From the IMG/VR virus record IMGVR_UViG_3300037153_000557, positions 1-55,007 of that record: 55,007 bases of DNA, one strand, 5' to 3'. Shown here piece after piece: positions 20,089 through 51,623 of this stretch (the stretch's first letter is position 1; every line of letters begins with the position of its first letter). Position numbers and translations under genes: made by a program. The notes beneath the pieces were generated by a model. The model ran no database searches, was not told where the DNA came from, and was given only the letters and a program-made list of their open reading frames with translations. The stretch is from a virus.

Positions 20089-20400
20089 TTAGTCGTCGTA
20101 AAAATCGAGATCATCGTCACTTATCCCACTAGAGATGAGGACTTCATTTTGCTGATTGGATGCGGATATTTTTGCCATTGGTAACGTGTTTTGCGTGGGA
20201 GATTGGCTTATCTCACCATTAAGAAAGAGCCGTATATACTCATCCGCATAGAAAGCAAGAAGATGACTTTTCGGTACGCCTTTCTGCCTTTCATCCTCTT
20301 GCAATTGCCTCATCAAGCGGCTATCACGATTGATAGCCACTGTGAGGTAAACCCGCTTATCTGTATCCCTTGGCATATTAAGAAACCTGCTCTTTTGCAT
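20089..20400 (-). CDS. ParR-like partition adaptor
   Basis: 103 residues from ATG 20400, overlapping the parM end by 23 bp; ATG 20376, two bases after the parM stop, is an alternative. The segment VYLTVAINRDSRLMRQLQEDERQKG followed by HLLAFYADEYIRLFLNG looks like a ribbon-helix-helix DNA-binding domain: one strand then two helices. The C terminus is acidic (GISDDDLDFYDD). ParR proteins bind parC through such a domain and contact ParM filament ends through a C-terminal tail. Call rests on fold pattern plus being directly after parM. Confidence 0.68.
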   Translation of the reverse strand: MQKSRFLNMPRDTDKRVYLTVAINRDSRLMRQLQEDERQKGVPKSHLLAFYADEYIRLFLNGEISQSPTQNTLPMAKISASNQQNEVLISSGISDDDLDFYDD

Positions 20401-21481
20401 CCCGATTAAAGAAGTGTAAAGCGAGTCTTGCATAGCCAGCGGCATTGGCGCATTCCGGTCTTATTGGCACCGATAAACGATTAGCAAAAAGTGCTCTTAC
20501 ACTGTCCTCAAAGTAGTAGGCACCCCCGCCGACTAAGAGGACATATTCAGCATCAGAAGCCACGACATCGCTTCTCAAAGAGCTAGCCCAGGACCGTTTA
20601 ATAAAGCCTGAAATTCGTTTGCCAACTTCGCCTAAAGACTTGCTTAAAAGAGCATCGACTCTCATGTGATGAGCCCCAGCATTCCTGACGGTTGCAACAC
20701 TGTTATAATCCTTGGTATCCACAAAACAATTCTGGAGTTTGGCAGCATCGCTCGCAGATAAAGGATAGCGAAACTCTTTCTCAAAAGACTCGGTTAAACT
20801 ATCGATTGCAGACTCAACCCCAATGTCATGAGACTTGCATTGATCTTTAATTGGTGTTTGACCATTCACCATATAGATATCAGTTGTCCGCCCTCCAATA
20901 TCGATAATACCCGCCTTGACTTTCCCTATGGCCCCATGTGCAATATTGGCACCGGAGCCCTCCATGATGACCTTCCTGATGGCGATGTGGGCTATACGCC
21001 TCTCACCATCTAAGACAAACTCGTGATCGCCTTCGAGCGCGTTTTTAATCGCCTCAATATTCTCCTCATTGTGCGTGAGGATAGGTAGACCAGTGACCAC
21101 GATCAACCCATACTCGCGATCTTTGATCAAAGTACCAGACGTTGCCAGTAGCATAGCCAGACTACGAACACTCCAGTAACGAGTGATGTCCCCACGGCTG
21201 GTCAATGTCATAGCATCGGATGATGGGGCCTGTTCGATTGCCAGATCCCCCACGTAAAACTCATTGCCATTGACGGCTATGATGTGAGCAGTGTCGTGGA
21301 CCGCTCCGATTTGACGCAGGTCCCCATTGGTTGACATGGCCTCCAACTCCTCACGTGAGCCCTCATAGAGCGTACTAGGCATGGTGAGCTCACGAAGATT
21401 ACCTGCAATGTAGGTAATTCCACACGTTTTACTATTGCCATAATCATGGCCGTATGGGTAGGTGTTGTAATGGTAATTCAT
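20378..21481 (-). CDS. parM: Actin-like plasmid segregation ATPase (ParM family)
   Basis: 367 residues. Actin-fold motifs: GHDYGNSKTCG (phosphate 1, residues 11-21), GKVKAGIIDIGGRTTDIYMV (phosphate 2, near 190) and YVLLVGGGAYYFED (adenosine motif, near 330). The closest pattern is the ParM/Alp/Ta0583 group that segregates low-copy plasmids. The promoter and parC-like repeats lie immediately upstream, and a ParR-like gene overlaps the 3' end. It would push plasmid copies of the phage genome apart. Ribosome site AAAGGAAAT. Confidence 0.9.
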   Translation of the reverse strand: MNYHYNTYPYGHDYGNSKTCGITYIAGNLRELTMPSTLYEGSREELEAMSTNGDLRQIGAVHDTAHIIAVNGNEFYVGDLAIEQAPSSDAMTLTSRGDITRYWSVRSLAMLLATSGTLIKDREYGLIVVTGLPILTHNEENIEAIKNALEGDHEFVLDGERRIAHIAIRKVIMEGSGANIAHGAIGKVKAGIIDIGGRTTDIYMVNGQTPIKDQCKSHDIGVESAIDSLTESFEKEFRYPLSASDAAKLQNCFVDTKDYNSVATVRNAGAHHMRVDALLSKSLGEVGKRISGFIKRSWASSLRSDVVASDAEYVLLVGGGAYYFEDSVRALFANRLSVPIRPECANAAGYARLALHFFNRDAKEQVS

Positions 21482-22160: not shown

Positions 22161-23786
22161 TTAAGCCTCCTCTAATTCCATACCCTTACGAGCCATGTTG
22201 CTAATTGATCTCATCACCTGCTCATACTCAAAACCAGCCTCTTGATAGCCTTGTCCCTTGCCTTTCTTGACTCTCCAGACACGCTCTATGATCCCATCTT
22301 TCGTGTTTATCCCAGAGGCCATCGCTTCTAGGACTTGGGATACTCGTAGATTGGCCTGAGAAGCCTCTTCAGGCTGTTCTTCCATCTCCGTTCTATCCAC
22401 ATTCCATCCACGTGGAGAGACCTCTTTGACGGTTACTTTGGAAGGCTCGTTTTTTGCCTTGAGTAAAGCCTTGACATCGTAGTCAGGGGCCTCCACCAAG
22501 TCGGTACATCCCGTAGCCTCTACCACACATTGCCCTTTTTGCTTGCTTTCCCAGTTCGAGTTAAGCAGTTCTGAGCAAACAAAACCAGCAGCCCTGGCCG
22601 CCGTGGGCTTGACTGCAAAGCTCACATTGATCCCAAAGTTGTTGTTAAACGCTTTCAGGTCCTCATCTGCATAATCCACCTGAGCACAAGCCATAAGATG
22701 GATGAATACTTTGAGCCCGCGAATAGCCAGCTCGTTTAAGTCATCGAGCAGCGTTGATCGTGTAGCCCCGTCAAGGTCCCTGTGTTTCTTCAAGCTCAGG
22801 AACTCCTCAATGTAGACCAGGATATGAGGCTGTTGGGCTTGCTCCGATTCTGGTAGGCTATAGCGCCTATCCATCTCATTGCGGATATAGTGCAGATATT
22901 CAGCTACCTGTCTTGGGTTGCGAGCGTGTAACTCAACTTCTTTCCTGCCTACATTCAAGACTGCCAAGTGCTCCATATCCTCAAAGAGTTTGCTCGTTTT
23001 GTTCTCTAGATCAAGCAAAGCAATCACCATCGTGTCGGGATCATGCGTCTTGGTCACCAGATCTATGAGAGCAGCCGCAAAGCAACTCTTGCCCTTCTGA
23101 CTTGATCCGATAATGAGAATATGCGAGCTATCAATATCGACAATCGGGACCCCATTTTGTCTGAGTGAGTTCCCAAAAGGCAACTGAAAACTATTGCGCT
23201 CTACTAGCTTCACCAAGTCCTCTATCTTTGGCTTGCCAGTTTGTCCAGGAGGGAGCAGCCCCATCGTCTCGCTATTGCTCTCGCTCTTCACGCTGTAATG
23301 CATGCTGTGCAAAGCCGGGTGCTCACGCATATTCCCCCTAATGAGTTGCCAACGCCCGGTCAATCCATCCCTTACGACTAAGTTCCCCTGCTCATCCAGA
23401 TGAGAGATATCACTGAGCCGCTTTGCCTCTGCCAACATCCTTTGTGCCTCAGCTTGCTTGATGGCGTTCTCAGCAGCCTTGGATGAGATCTCAACCAGTG
23501 CCGTCTTGTAGTAGGTCCAAGTCGAAAGGCCATATTTCACGCCAGCGCCAATACCAGCAAGAACAACTGCTGGTATGAGTAGTTGAGCTCCGAACCGAAT
23601 CAGTGAGCCCGATGCTGCTACCCAAATTCCCCAATTAGCAAACATGGCAGTCAGGAAGCCAATGAACAGGATCACCGAGATAGATGAGGCAATCACAAAC
23701 GTCACTAGTGATTTCAGGCCGTCTGCTGGTGAAATCTCTCTATCCATTTCAGCTATTTGCACTTCTTGGTTAAATTTTCTTTTCAC
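22161..23786 (-). CDS. Membrane-anchored FtsK/HerA-type DNA translocase
   Basis: 541 residues. Two membrane helices (residues about 28-58 and 62-85), a coiled linker, then a RecA-like ATPase: Walker A GSSQKGKS (near 230), Walker B VIALLDLENK and ILVYIEEFLSL with the acidic pair, and GLKVFIHLMACAQ (sensor). Residues 480-541 look like a winged helix (ASGINTKDGIIERVW). Such proteins are FtsK/SpoIIIE- or Tra-type coupling ATPases of plasmids and actinomycete conjugative elements. Here it may move or segregate the extrachromosomal genome. Confidence 0.85.
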   Translation of the reverse strand: MKRKFNQEVQIAEMDREISPADGLKSLVTFVIASSISVILFIGFLTAMFANWGIWVAASGSLIRFGAQLLIPAVVLAGIGAGVKYGLSTWTYYKTALVEISSKAAENAIKQAEAQRMLAEAKRLSDISHLDEQGNLVVRDGLTGRWQLIRGNMREHPALHSMHYSVKSESNSETMGLLPPGQTGKPKIEDLVKLVERNSFQLPFGNSLRQNGVPIVDIDSSHILIIGSSQKGKSCFAAALIDLVTKTHDPDTMVIALLDLENKTSKLFEDMEHLAVLNVGRKEVELHARNPRQVAEYLHYIRNEMDRRYSLPESEQAQQPHILVYIEEFLSLKKHRDLDGATRSTLLDDLNELAIRGLKVFIHLMACAQVDYADEDLKAFNNNFGINVSFAVKPTAARAAGFVCSELLNSNWESKQKGQCVVEATGCTDLVEAPDYDVKALLKAKNEPSKVTVKEVSPRGWNVDRTEMEEQPEEASQANLRVSQVLEAMASGINTKDGIIERVWRVKKGKGQGYQEAGFEYEQVMRSISNMARKGMELEEA

Positions 23787-47599: not shown

Positions 47600-47656
47600 A
47601 AGCTCAACGAATACCAGATAATTACCATTATCTTGCTTTCAGAAGGAGGTTTACAA

Positions 47657-48592
47657 ATGGAGCAAGAACTGATATCTGTCTCATCAATTGACTTAGCAGT
47701 AGTAGAAGATGCTACCACCATCAATCTCTGGTTACGCTCGAAAAGAAGTGAGCACACAAAAAAGGCTTATGCAAGGGATATTAAAAGCTTTTATGCCTTT
47801 ATCAAAGTAAAGAGAGAGAAAGAGATAATAGTAGAAAATGTCACCATTAGGAACGTTACTCTAGAGGACATACAGGACTATGCTGAGTACCTAAAAACTG
47901 AACATAAGGAAGTCTCAACACAAGCTCGTAAAATAGCTGCTGTCAAGTCTCTCCTAACTTTTGCTTCTAGGATAAAGTATACTGACTTTAATGTAGGAGC
48001 AGCTCAACAACTGCCAGAAGGAAAAGACAAGCTAGCCCAAAGAATACTCTCTACTAGCCAAGTGCAGAATATTATCTATGAAGCAAGAGATAATAAACGC
48101 AATCATGCCATGCTCTTACTCTTATATGGTAGCGGCATCCGATGTGCTGAGCTATGCGGCCTCCAGTGGGAAGATGTTCAGGAGACTGCTACTGGAGGAC
48201 AGATTACTGTCTTTGGAAAGAGGAGTAAGACGCGTTCTATTCCACTGCATAAAGTTGTTTGGGATGAACTGATTTCTATTCGTCCTCTAGATGCTAAATC
48301 TGAAGACTATGTGTTTCAGTCTCGCAAGCTCACATCACGAAATGAGCAAGAACCTACACGCAAACTTAATGAAGCTCAAGTGTGGAAAATTGTGAAGGGC
48401 TATGCTGAGAAGGCTGGTATCAAGAAAGCATCCACACACTGGTTTCGACATGCTCATGCTACTCATGCCATGGAAAAAGGCGCTCCGCTTCGACTTATTC
48501 AGGAAACGCTAGGACATGCTGATTTGCGTACACCGAGTAGATACCAACATGTCAGGCCTGAATCATCCAGTTCCACCTATCTTGACTTGTGA
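47657..48592 (+). CDS. int: Tyrosine recombinase (XerC/D-like integrase)
   Basis: 311 residues from ATG 47657 (GAAGGAGG site). SAM-like N-terminal domain (residues 15-110, NLWLRSKRSEHTKKAYARDIKSFYAF). Catalytic domain: LYGSGIRCAELCGLQW (Arg I), GKRSKTRSIPLH (Lys), THWFRHAHATH (His/Arg), ETLGHADLRTPSRYQHV (His and nucleophile Tyr). It integrates the phage genome or resolves multimers, which would also help a plasmid state. No attP core could be fixed by eye. Confidence 0.95.
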   Translation: MEQELISVSSIDLAVVEDATTINLWLRSKRSEHTKKAYARDIKSFYAFIKVKREKEIIVENVTIRNVTLEDIQDYAEYLKTEHKEVSTQARKIAAVKSLLTFASRIKYTDFNVGAAQQLPEGKDKLAQRILSTSQVQNIIYEARDNKRNHAMLLLLYGSGIRCAELCGLQWEDVQETATGGQITVFGKRSKTRSIPLHKVVWDELISIRPLDAKSEDYVFQSRKLTSRNEQEPTRKLNEAQVWKIVKGYAEKAGIKKASTHWFRHAHATHAMEKGAPLRLIQETLGHADLRTPSRYQHVRPESSSSTYLDL

Positions 48593-48683
48593 ACCGTCCG
48601 CAACTATCGGACACGTGTGGTATACTGGGCTTGCATCGCACAAAGATGTAGGTGGGTCGGCACCGTGATCAACGACGCAAATG

Positions 48684-48745
48684 GCCTCTCTCAACAAGTA
48701 GCTCTTGAAGTTTTACGCTTCGAGTGAATGTGAGAGAGGCTTTTT
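48684..48745 (+). terminator. Integrase terminator
   Basis: 10-bp stem GCCTCTCTCA / TGAGAGAGGC followed by T5 (48741-48745). The loop contains a second short stem. Confidence 0.85.
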
Positions 48746-48829
48746 GTTGTCACAAATATCTCACAAGGTTCCTAACATGTATTCTATTTGTTGTAATAAT
48801 GTGCTATCATTGTACTAACTTTGTTTCTC

Positions 48830-49283
48830 CAGTCAGGAACCCCATAGCTAAAGCTAGGGGCTTGTGAAGAGGGGGTGATTTCTGCCCATCCAATTTGCAA
48901 GCTCACCTGACCAGACCCAGCCACCAGGAGCAATCCTGACGGGGCTACGTTAGAGACGAATAGATAGGTACCATAGGGTGCGTCCGCCAGCCCGATGCTC
49001 TACGGTCAGTGGTTAAACAGGTGTACAAGGGTTAAGCCAGTGCTGCTGACAGACAAACCGTCTTCTAACTTCGTCGAGGCGAACATCACCTGGGAAACCA
49101 GTGTGGGTTTGTCCGTTCCCACCCAAAAACGGACTCCCCACAAGGGGACAAAGAAGAAAGGAGAGCAAGTGAGTGCTTATGCACAAGACAAGCTGGCTAA
49201 CCGCCCGCCACTTGTCTTCCCCACATCCCATGCATCTAGGGAGCAATTCCTCCCCATGTCTAAAGCCAGGGGTATCCTTGCAC
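48830..49283 (+). mobile_element. ORF-less IS200/IS605 or ISC-type element with structured RNA (omega-RNA-like)
   Basis: The left-end hairpin CCCCATAGC-TAAAGC-TAGGGG (48840-48860) and right-end hairpin CCCCATGTC-TAAAGC-CAGGGG (49252-49272) match in 18 of 21 bases. The right end also carries GGGAGCAATTCCTCCC (49239-49254) and TATCCTTGC, the arrangement of IS200/IS605 and IscB right ends. About 320 bases between are highly structured: GTCAG/CTGAC, CTGG-GAAA-CCAG (49090-49101), GTGGG/CCCAC, TCCCC/GGGGA. A strong GAAAGGAGAG site follows at 49156, but no IscB or TnpB ORF. No TnpA. Confidence 0.72.
48835..49155 (+). ncRNA. IscB-type omega RNA / HEARO-like candidate
   Basis: The structured span starts at the element left end, where IscB omega RNAs begin, and stops just before the ribosome site, where iscB would start. 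At least six stems, including a GAAA tetraloop helix, can be drawn. The guide would be the sequence just outside the left end (ending near 48829). I recognise the layout, not an exact match to the Rfam model. Confidence 0.6.
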
Positions 49284-49307
49284 AAATGTGAATGAGTGAG
49301 CAAAAGA

Positions 49308-49535
49308 ATGCATTTTATCGGTATTAAGTGCGAGACTTGCAATAAGTTAGCCAACACGAAGGACAGCATTGACGATCTACCGAATGGCTGGATCGCTCTG
49401 GTGCAACGAGCCACAAATTTCTTCAGCACAAGTCGTCAAGAGGCTTTGCACTTTTGTTCGATGGCGTGTCTACGGGCTTGGGTCAGAGAACAGGATGCAC
49501 AGCCCAAAGCGGTAGTGGAACGAGCGGGCGAGTGA
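49308..49535 (+). CDS. Small zinc protein
   Basis: 75 residues from ATG 49308 (GTG 49296 possible). KCETCNKLANTKDSIDDLPNGWIALVQR and HFCSMACLRAWV give a treble-clef or ribbon type zinc site. No strong ribosome site; the ISC-type element ends 25 bases upstream and may have split an earlier leader. It precedes the packaging genes. Confidence 0.6.
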   Translation: MHFIGIKCETCNKLANTKDSIDDLPNGWIALVQRATNFFSTSRQEALHFCSMACLRAWVREQDAQPKAVVERAGE

Positions 49536-49631
49536 ATGGACGTCTTGATTGCAATCGCCGTCGTCTTCTTCTGTATCGGCTGTTTTGCATTTGGCTATGC
49601 TGCAGCCCTGTGGCTGGAGAGTAGGCAATGA
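49536..49631 (+). CDS. 31-residue single-TM protein
   Basis: ATG 49536 one base after the previous stop; its stop overlaps the small-terminase ATG (ATGA). MDVLIAIAVVFFCIGCFAFG then YAAALWLESRQ: one membrane helix with a charged end. The GAGCGGGCGAG context is a moderate ribosome site. Tightly packed between genes, so probably real. Confidence 0.65.
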   Translation: MDVLIAIAVVFFCIGCFAFGYAAALWLESRQ

Positions 49632-50305
49632 GTGAAGAGCGTAAACCTTGGGAGCAAAATATTGAAGCTGGCGAACCGGACCTGTGGTATGGACGGTTCG
49701 TCAAATATTTGCGCCTAGGATCGAAACGCTCCGTTAATGCCTTGTATGCCAAAGAAGCCAAGGCCGCGAAAAACAGCGAAAAACAGCGAAATTTAGATGC
49801 TGGCGGGGATTGGTATGACATTGAAAAGGCGTGGAATTGGAAGGAAAGGGCAAGGGCTTATGATGAATGGCAGAGGAAAGAAGAAGATAGAATAATTGCA
49901 GAAGAGAAAGATAAGGTACTCAGGTCAGGATTTGCACTTATGCATAAGCGTATCAAAGAACTAGATAGACAGGCCCGTAAGCTTATACAGATGACTAATG
50001 ACGAGCAAAAGATCTGGGTACCGGAAGTGCGAACAGTTATTATGGGAGAAGATAAGTCACAAACTATTGAAAAGCTCACGTTTAATGCTCCGCTATTTAC
50101 AACTATAGACAAAATATTTGATAGCATTGCTAAGGAAACAGGCGAAAGAGTCAAGAAGAAAGATATCACTATAACTGAAATGCCTGCTAGCGTTTACCAA
50201 GGATTTAATCCTGATGAGGATGGAACTGTAACCGATGGTAACGAAGCCTTACCTAATTCAGAACCACAACAAAATACAGGTAACGAAGGACAACAGGCCG
50301 TATAG
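49628..50305 (+). CDS. Terminase small subunit-like protein
   Basis: 225 residues. An N-terminal segment with YLRLGSKRSVNALYAKEAK and AWNWKERARAYDEWQRKEE is the usual end of the small-terminase DNA-binding region (WxxRAxAYDxW). The middle is coiled coil; the C terminus is acidic and Gln-rich. It recognises phage DNA for packaging. Overlaps the large terminase by 71 bp. Confidence 0.75.
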   Translation: MSEERKPWEQNIEAGEPDLWYGRFVKYLRLGSKRSVNALYAKEAKAAKNSEKQRNLDAGGDWYDIEKAWNWKERARAYDEWQRKEEDRIIAEEKDKVLRSGFALMHKRIKELDRQARKLIQMTNDEQKIWVPEVRTVIMGEDKSQTIEKLTFNAPLFTTIDKIFDSIAKETGERVKKKDITITEMPASVYQGFNPDEDGTVTDGNEALPNSEPQQNTGNEGQQAV

Positions 50306-51623
50306 AGCCCTTGGCGGTGCTCTAGAAGCTTGGAAGTCAGGCCATAAAGAGACGCTTCTGTGTGGTCCGGCTGGCACTGGCAAGAGTCGTGCCATTCTTC
50401 AAAAGCTTCACTTCTGTGCGCAAAAATACCCCGGCATGCGCGGCCTCATCACCAGAAAAACACGACATAGCATCTCACAGACAGCTATGGTGACTTTTGA
50501 AAAGAAAGTCTTACCTGCTGGCTGGCTCGACAAATACGTGCATTTCAACACGACTGAGCAACAGTATGAGTATGTGAATGGCTCAATCATTGCTGTTGGT
50601 GGCATGGATAAACCCTCTAAGGTGATGAGTTCCGAGTGGGACATGATTTACCCGCAAGAGGCGACCGAACTGCTAGAAGAGGACTGGCAAGCTCTCACTA
50701 CCAGACTTAGAAATGGTGTGATGCCCTACCAGCAACTCATAGGTGACTGCAATCCCTCCTATCCTAATCACTGGCTCAAGATCCGTTGCGACAAGAAAAT
50801 TACCCGTCTCATCCACTCCAAGCACACAGATAACCCAAGTGTCACGAAAGCTTATCTCGACACGCTGAACAACCTCCAAGGTGTGATGAGGGACCGTCTC
50901 TTGCTTGGCATTTGGGCGGCTGCAGACGGCCTTGTCTACGATGAGTGGAACCCTGCTATCCACATCGTCACGAAAAAGCAACTCATTGACTGGAATATCT
51001 TCCATCCTGATGGGACATTCAACAAGTGGAAAATCAAACGGTTCGTCGCGGGCGTTGACTGGGGATACACAAACCCTGGAGTGATCAATGTGTTTGCGGT
51101 GGACAATGATGATCGGCTTTATCTGCTCAGGGAAGTCTACCGGACGAGGAAAAGGATTGATTGGTGGGTAGAGCAAGCCCAGGCGCTGGACAGGGAATTT
51201 GGGGGAATTGATGAGTGGATATGTGATCCGTCTGAGCCTGCTTATATTTCTGATTTCAGTTCTGTAGGGCTCAACGCCTTTGGAGCTGACAACGATATCA
51301 TACCCGGCGTTGATGCAATGAAAGAGCGGCTAGAGGTGATTGGTGACGGGCGTGCAAGGCTTTATGTCTATGAGTTCTCTTTGCCAGAACGAGACGCGCT
51401 ACGCGACAATGACCACAAACCCGTGTGCTTTGAGAACGAGATCAACGCCTATGTATGGCCTAAGCAGAAGGATGGACAGCCTGTAAAGGAGGTACCTGTG
51501 AAGCTAGAGGATCACAGCCTGGACAATACCCGGTATGTCTGTAAACAGCTCAAAAGTGATAGTAGCATTCATTCTATCGATGTTGATACCGTTAATGCAT
51601 TACAGAGTTACGTAGGATACTAA
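50235..51623 (+). CDS. Terminase large subunit
   Basis: 462 residues. ATPase: Walker A CGPAGTGKS (near residue 44), SEWDMIYPQEATEL (Walker B plus catalytic Glu, near 140). Nuclease: AGVDWGYTNPG (Asp), EWICDPSEP (Asp) and LDNTRYVCK (Asp) in RNase-H order. Packages DNA into the prohead through the portal. Terminase_6/PBSX-like type; compatible with headful packaging, which fits the circularly permuted assembly. Confidence 0.95.
   Translation: MVTKPYLIQNHNKIQVTKDNRPYRALGGALEAWKSGHKETLLCGPAGTGKSRAILQKLHFCAQKYPGMRGLITRKTRHSISQTAMVTFEKKVLPAGWLDKYVHFNTTEQQYEYVNGSIIAVGGMDKPSKVMSSEWDMIYPQEATELLEEDWQALTTRLRNGVMPYQQLIGDCNPSYPNHWLKIRCDKKITRLIHSKHTDNPSVTKAYLDTLNNLQGVMRDRLLLGIWAAADGLVYDEWNPAIHIVTKKQLIDWNIFHPDGTFNKWKIKRFVAGVDWGYTNPGVINVFAVDNDDRLYLLREVYRTRKRIDWWVEQAQALDREFGGIDEWICDPSEPAYISDFSSVGLNAFGADNDIIPGVDAMKERLEVIGDGRARLYVYEFSLPERDALRDNDHKPVCFENEINAYVWPKQKDGQPVKEVPVKLEDHSLDNTRYVCKQLKSDSSIHSIDVDTVNALQSYVGY

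Follow-up and report, generated by a model that had tools for sequence, protein, structure and literature searches.

A putative non-autonomous IS200/IS605-ISC-type element with an omega RNA and a conserved 3' domain in a phage genome

Sequence comparison provides good support for the presence, at positions 48832 to ~49287–49295 of an IMG/VR virus sequence, of a non-autonomous IS200/IS605-ISC element that consists of an omega RNA with a 3' extension and carries neither iscB nor tnpA. The whole 55,007-base record was analyzed and is referred to below as the window. IscB is the ancestor of Cas9, and the omega RNA is its guide RNA. Judging from a covariance model of the 3' extension, the element is a member of an iscB-less subfamily of omega RNAs that share this 3' domain and are found in large genomes of Chloroflexota (Ktedonobacteria-like). 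Phage genes flank it on both sides and, therefore, it sits inside the phage genome, a clear example from nature of a virus carrying a guide RNA without the cognate nuclease. The features of the locus are as follows.

47633–48592 (+): phage tyrosine integrase gene, the left neighbor (PF00589, E 3e-32; PHROG integrase)
48677–48747 (+): in the interval separating the element from the integrase gene, a terminator-like hairpin with T5 after it (-33.2 kcal/mol, z -5.8, 0 of 200 shuffles equally good)
48772–48800 (+): weak promoter-like site CTAACA-17-AATAAT, with TG before the second hexamer (9 of 12 consensus positions)
48816–48831 (+): predicted 16-nt guide TAACTTTGTTTCTCCA, phage sequence directly left of the element (position by homology)
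48832–49089 (+): HEARO/omega-RNA core, complete scaffold (RF02033, model positions 1–211 of 211)
48840–48860 (+): left-end hairpin CCCCATAGCTAAAGCTAGGGG, inside a 33-base stretch identical to IscB elements
49088–49147 (+): 3' domain of three hairpins, CTGG-GAAA-CCAG, GTCCGTT-loop-AACGGAC and CCCC-ACAA-GGGG (model R1)
49148–49238 (+): extra segment with the Shine-Dalgarno (SD)-like AGAAAGGAG, GTG at 49169, a GACAAG/CTTGTC stem and an ORF to 49291
49239–49287 (+): right end, GGGAGCAATTCCTCCC (49239–49254) plus hairpin CCCCATGTCTAAAGCCAGGGG (49252–49272)
49288–49299 (+): right flank GTGAATGAGTGA, GTGA-ATGA-GTGA, with RTGR, the motif on the target/TAM side by comparison with host copies, three times in tandem
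49296–49535 (+): 79-aa cysteine-containing ORF at the right junction, no family
49628–50305 (+): terminase small subunit gene (PHROG 6299)
50235–51623 (+): terminase large subunit gene (PF04466)

Omega-RNA core, element ends and the absent nuclease gene

Scanning the full window with Rfam yields a match to HEARO (RF02033) at 48832–49089(+), with a score of 122.4 bits against the gathering cutoff of 83 and an E-value of 6.9e-25, and no other family at the gathering threshold. The alignment covers the model from the first to the last position, that is, the scaffold is full-length; solo copies in the host group score 86–123 bits, so that the window copy ranks with the highest of them. The element thus passes the covariance-model test suggested in the initial annotation, which was made from the sequence alone. 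The dense RNA structure proposed there is borne out as well: folded as RNA, the element, taken as 456 bases, is more stable than its shuffled versions (z -2.9), with none of the 100 equally good.

Both ends are intact and tie the element to IscB elements of the Ktedonobacteria type, as previously proposed. The left end (48832–48864) is identical in 33 of 33 positions to two elements that encode complete IscB (L343 and L345), and the right end (49249–49274) in 25 of 26 positions to three full IscB elements (L240, L241 and L274). The end hairpins match as originally described, with TAAAGC common to both, and the right-end pattern GGGAGCAATTCCTCCC is where it had been reported. The same 33-base left end is found in one more locus (L344, G362:C1:5205565-5205597), where neither an omega RNA nor iscB is matched downstream. 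In host copies, the right end is immediately followed by ATGG, GTGA, ATGA or GTGG (RTGR). The subterminal hairpins common with IscB elements and the RTGR at the junction, both present here, place the element among the IS200/IS605-ISC derivatives.

The span originally assigned, 48830–49283, needs a small correction at its right end. The similarity between host copies breaks off exactly to the left of GTCAGG; the element accordingly begins at 48832, and the predicted guide occupies 48816–48831, the IscB guide being 16 nt long. The right boundary is at 49287, 49291 or 49295, an ambiguity of 8 bases that results from the three RTGR motifs in tandem.

The claim that the nuclease gene was lost stands insofar as none is present: the tblastn search with IscB gives no match in the window (best E 0.24), and there is neither tnpA in the element nor a significant iscB remnant downstream of the omega RNA. 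The HNH-nuclease ORF that usually lies directly downstream of HEARO, a context that is not required for this RNA family, is absent. However, the loss probably preceded the entry into the phage because the closest relatives with the same 3' domain also lack iscB. A complete IscB OMEGA system, in which the protein is encoded together with the RNA, is not present here, so that any partner would have to act in trans. The ribosome-binding site reported as having no ORF behind it, AGAAAGGAG, is real (~49155–49163), but a 40-codon ORF does follow (GTG at 49169 to TGA at 49291) and reads through the right end of the element. This ORF was considered as an iscB remnant and rejected, given that 184 of 1000 shuffles aligned equally well with IscB N-termini. 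The segment of ~90 bases before the right end, to which the start of this ORF belongs, is unique to the window copy; in the host relatives, this segment is shorter.

The portal gene is located further to the right, beyond the terminases. Promoter-like sites are weak evidence, with three found against 1.0 expected; the one at 48772–48800 could be the start of an RNA just ahead of the guide. Alongside the integrase, the phage encodes actin-like ParM/ALP and FtsK-like proteins (20378–21481 (-) and 22161–23786 (-), respectively) and may be kept as a phage-plasmid.

The conserved 3' domain and the host-group copies

The search of Chloroflexota genomes, which was centered on an Anaerolineaceae genome reached through a distant terminase, detected HEARO in 39 of the 400 genomes, the richest of which are very large (one of 13.7 Mb). 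In the class of the 13.7 Mb genome, 28 of 47 genomes have blastn matches to the window element and one encodes a related terminase (E 1e-117), suggesting that the phage host probably belongs to the same class of Ktedonobacteria-like soil bacteria. Most of the host HEAROs that were examined have iscB close behind; solo copies are common in this group.

Twelve solo host copies, distributed among five genomes (five in G165, two each in G285, G306 and G313, and one in G393), share with the window element a domain of ~60 bases after the omega-RNA core. Across the copies, the first hairpin of this domain is a GNRA-capped stem (CTGG-GAAA-CCAG or CCGC-GCAA-GCGG), the second is a seven-pair stem with the conserved loop CCCAYCAAA, and the third is CCCC-GCAA-GGGG. 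The covariance model R1, built from the 12 host copies with the window excluded, has a sole match in the window, at 49088–49147 (62.7 bits, E 1.7e-15). By formal count, 97% of the cells are paired and five pairs are changed on both sides; the covariation score is 0.261, compared with 0.118 in shuffles (0 of 500 as high), structures slid along the alignment score far lower, and compensatory changes are also apparent when the pairs are matched by hand. In the window, every pair of hairpins 1 and 2 is intact, including a T-A pair where most of the host copies have A-T. The Rfam scans that were made contain no family covering this domain.

When searched against the 47 genomes, R1 recovers the 12 copies along with weaker matches. 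All 13 strong matches lack iscB; for the 12 host copies, none was found downstream within up to 2.4 kb (less at contig ends). Two partial exceptions are a weak match (L365, 28.4 bits) that sits between an omega RNA and the start of iscB and a partial match ahead of iscB (L135). Because the former precedes an iscB, the domain may be ancestral and might have been retained upon iscB loss. Some of the weaker matches lie behind a HEARO, namely, L361, L372 and L376 (group II intron between core and domain). Others, among them L357 and a set of three near-identical loci that precede an rpmE-like gene, have no detectable omega-RNA core; hence, the domain is more than a mere portion of the core that binds the nuclease.

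L357 (G341, ~1270–1560) is a very small copy that consists of the left end, the 3' domain and the right end, with no omega-RNA middle, and adjoins a second 3' domain with a right end. The omega-RNA core and the 3' domain of a solo element in G387 (L161, 1567–2610) are separated by a group II intron (Rfam Intron_gpII, 2367–2460). The three loci before the rpmE-like gene (L356, L364 and L375, in G405, G387 and G399, respectively) contain, at about locus position 1500, an R1-like structure within a region of ~500–600 bases that is 94–98% identical among the three genomes; the region ends at ATGA, followed by an ORF reading MKQGIHPNVIEATVSCACG that, by eye, resembles ribosomal protein bL31, and may represent an ancient insertion that was retained as the leader of rpmE. 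Five orthologous loci (L359, L360, L362, L363 and L366, in G091, G189, G109, G100 and G173) have R1-like hairpins right after a promoter-like TTGACA..TATCAT, with neither an omega-RNA core nor an Rfam match, and are possibly an undescribed small RNA.

Potential partners in trans are encoded in the host group. Each of the five genomes with solo copies has a full-length iscB elsewhere (L234, L106, L097, L123 and L238). Y1 transposase matches were obtained in 10 of the 12 host-group genomes tested, and the genes are intact in G165, G306 and G393, with only partial or weak matches in G285 and G313. The right ends of two copies in G306, one solo (L116) and the other with iscB (L142), are nearly identical.

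Phage relatives, a possible mode of action and alternatives

The closest relatives of the terminase in viral contigs are 72–78% identical. None of the 40 records of related phages contains HEARO, and no uninterrupted (empty) site was found, the interval between the integrase and terminase genes in the closest phages being diverged or rearranged. The blastn search against phage records returned no match, and that against plasmids only distant HEAROs such as the one in Geoalkalibacter pGSUB1, the source of one of the IscB queries. The exact right-end pattern GGGAGCAATTCCTCCC..TAAAGCC has no match in the viral and genome collections because a single exact string cannot capture the diversity of this element family. 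Relatives of the element in viral contigs were sought with four patterns, and none was found, leaving one phage copy known. The 49 viral contigs with the core pattern TCGAGGCRMACATYACC were dismissed as phage HEAROs since their context indicates chance matches, and RF02033 is found in none of the 40 records scanned.

The comparison of the guide with host sequences next to the TAM, proposed in the initial annotation, came out negative: in the 47 genomes, there is no guide target followed by RTGR with fewer than two mismatches. Targets with two mismatches in two host-group genomes were discarded, their number being about that expected by chance and the reversed control pattern also giving one. 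Three exact matches to the guide in viral sequences were likewise rejected as targets because they come from a single unrelated family of coding sequences, in which blastn detects no similarity to this phage.

We consider it fairly probable that this is a miniature element moved by a host Y1 transposase, and that its RNA borrows the host IscB to cut phage loci that lack the insertion; we infer that both mobilization and guiding would occur in trans. The host transposase would move the element through its end hairpins. The RNA would be read from a promoter just upstream, begin with ~16 nt of flanking phage sequence, and load onto the host IscB. The resulting complex would then cut a phage locus without the insertion, where the guide sequence is followed by RTGR, that is, either the donor site once the element has excised or, during co-infection, the intact locus of a related phage. 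Repair templated by the occupied copy would keep or spread the element. Its own locus would be spared since, in the occupied state, the guide sequence is no longer adjacent to RTGR. Cutting followed by repair that retains and spreads the element has been reported for TnpB and IscB elements. If the phage copy is active, it would show that RNA-guided transposon retention can be left to the host machinery and can serve phages as a homing drive. A more far-reaching proposal, which we regard as unlikely, is that elements with the 3' domain form a lineage of their own, consisting of guide RNAs without a nuclease, that is selected as RNA and parasitizes the IscB of other elements, with phage-borne members serving as homing guides against the uninterrupted loci of rival phages.

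It is somewhat unlikely that the insertion is dead, i.e. a solo omega-RNA element that hopped from the host chromosome and is decaying, neither expressed nor used. The single phage copy, with none in the viral contigs by the four patterns or in the 40 related phages, agrees with this scenario, as does the weak promoter evidence, and the ~90-base segment unique to the window copy could mean decay. Decay is harder to reconcile with the complete scaffold, which scores 122 bits and so reaches the top of the host solo range, with the full pairing of hairpins 1 and 2 of the 3' domain, and with the intact state of both ends. These same intact transposon ends favor an ordinary mobile element over a guide RNA that was exapted by the phage and retained because it directs the host IscB to competing phages or elements, and not because it promotes the spread of the element itself. 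The location after a terminator and ahead of the packaging genes implies that such an RNA could be expressed in infection; however, the guide is mere flanking phage sequence, with no protospacer in the host-group genomes or relevant phages, and we view exaptation as the least probable of the readings.

Only slightly less improbable is a cis-acting leader, in which the structured RNA, chiefly the 3' domain, acts within the mRNA of the downstream gene, on readthrough, stability or translation, independently of IscB. The occurrence of the 3' domain without a detectable core elsewhere, before the rpmE-like gene (L356, L364 and L375) and in L357, points in this direction, and many solo right ends finish in an SD-like AGAAAGGA just ahead of RTGR. 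Against such a role, the right end in the window has no good Shine-Dalgarno sequence, and the RTGR sites of iscB-bearing copies are not clearly richer in starts of long ORFs, considering that ~37% of control RTGR sites reach 60 codons. In a separate multi-copy solo family (L153–L159, L163, L232 in G320, and others), the right end finishes in the SD-like AGAAAGGATTTCTT before ATGG, which is a gene start in several copies; the special start-codon preference hinted at by the G320 copies is unsupported beyond the RTGR motif itself.

Relation to known systems

HEARO/IscB omega RNAs, stand-alone omega RNAs and HEAROs in phages are already known. Stand-alone omega RNAs of Ktedonobacter genomes were reportedly described by Altae-Tran and colleagues in 2021, along with IscB; these resemble the window element in having no adjacent iscB and in coming from the same host group, whereas the window copy resides in a phage and is one of the subset with a distinct 3' domain. 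HEARO has also been annotated, by annotation only, in Staphylococcus Silviavirus phages (PMC13346280), likewise in a phage genome but from a different host phylum.

In its full-length match, location at the left end and guide on the 5' side, the window element is like the HEARO/IscB omega RNA (RF02033), from which it differs by the lack of iscB and by the additional 60-base covarying 3' domain and ~90 bases before the right end. With the ISC-group IS200/IS605 elements that bear IscB (L343, L345 and L240), it shares nearly identical ends and the RTGR at the right flank, but it lacks iscB and tnpA and is ~455 bases long compared with their ~1.6 kb. As far as could be checked, two points are new: the 3' domain conserved in the iscB-less subfamily, a concrete, testable feature that is absent from Rfam and almost confined to omega RNAs without a nuclease, and the occurrence of this subfamily in a phage of this host group.
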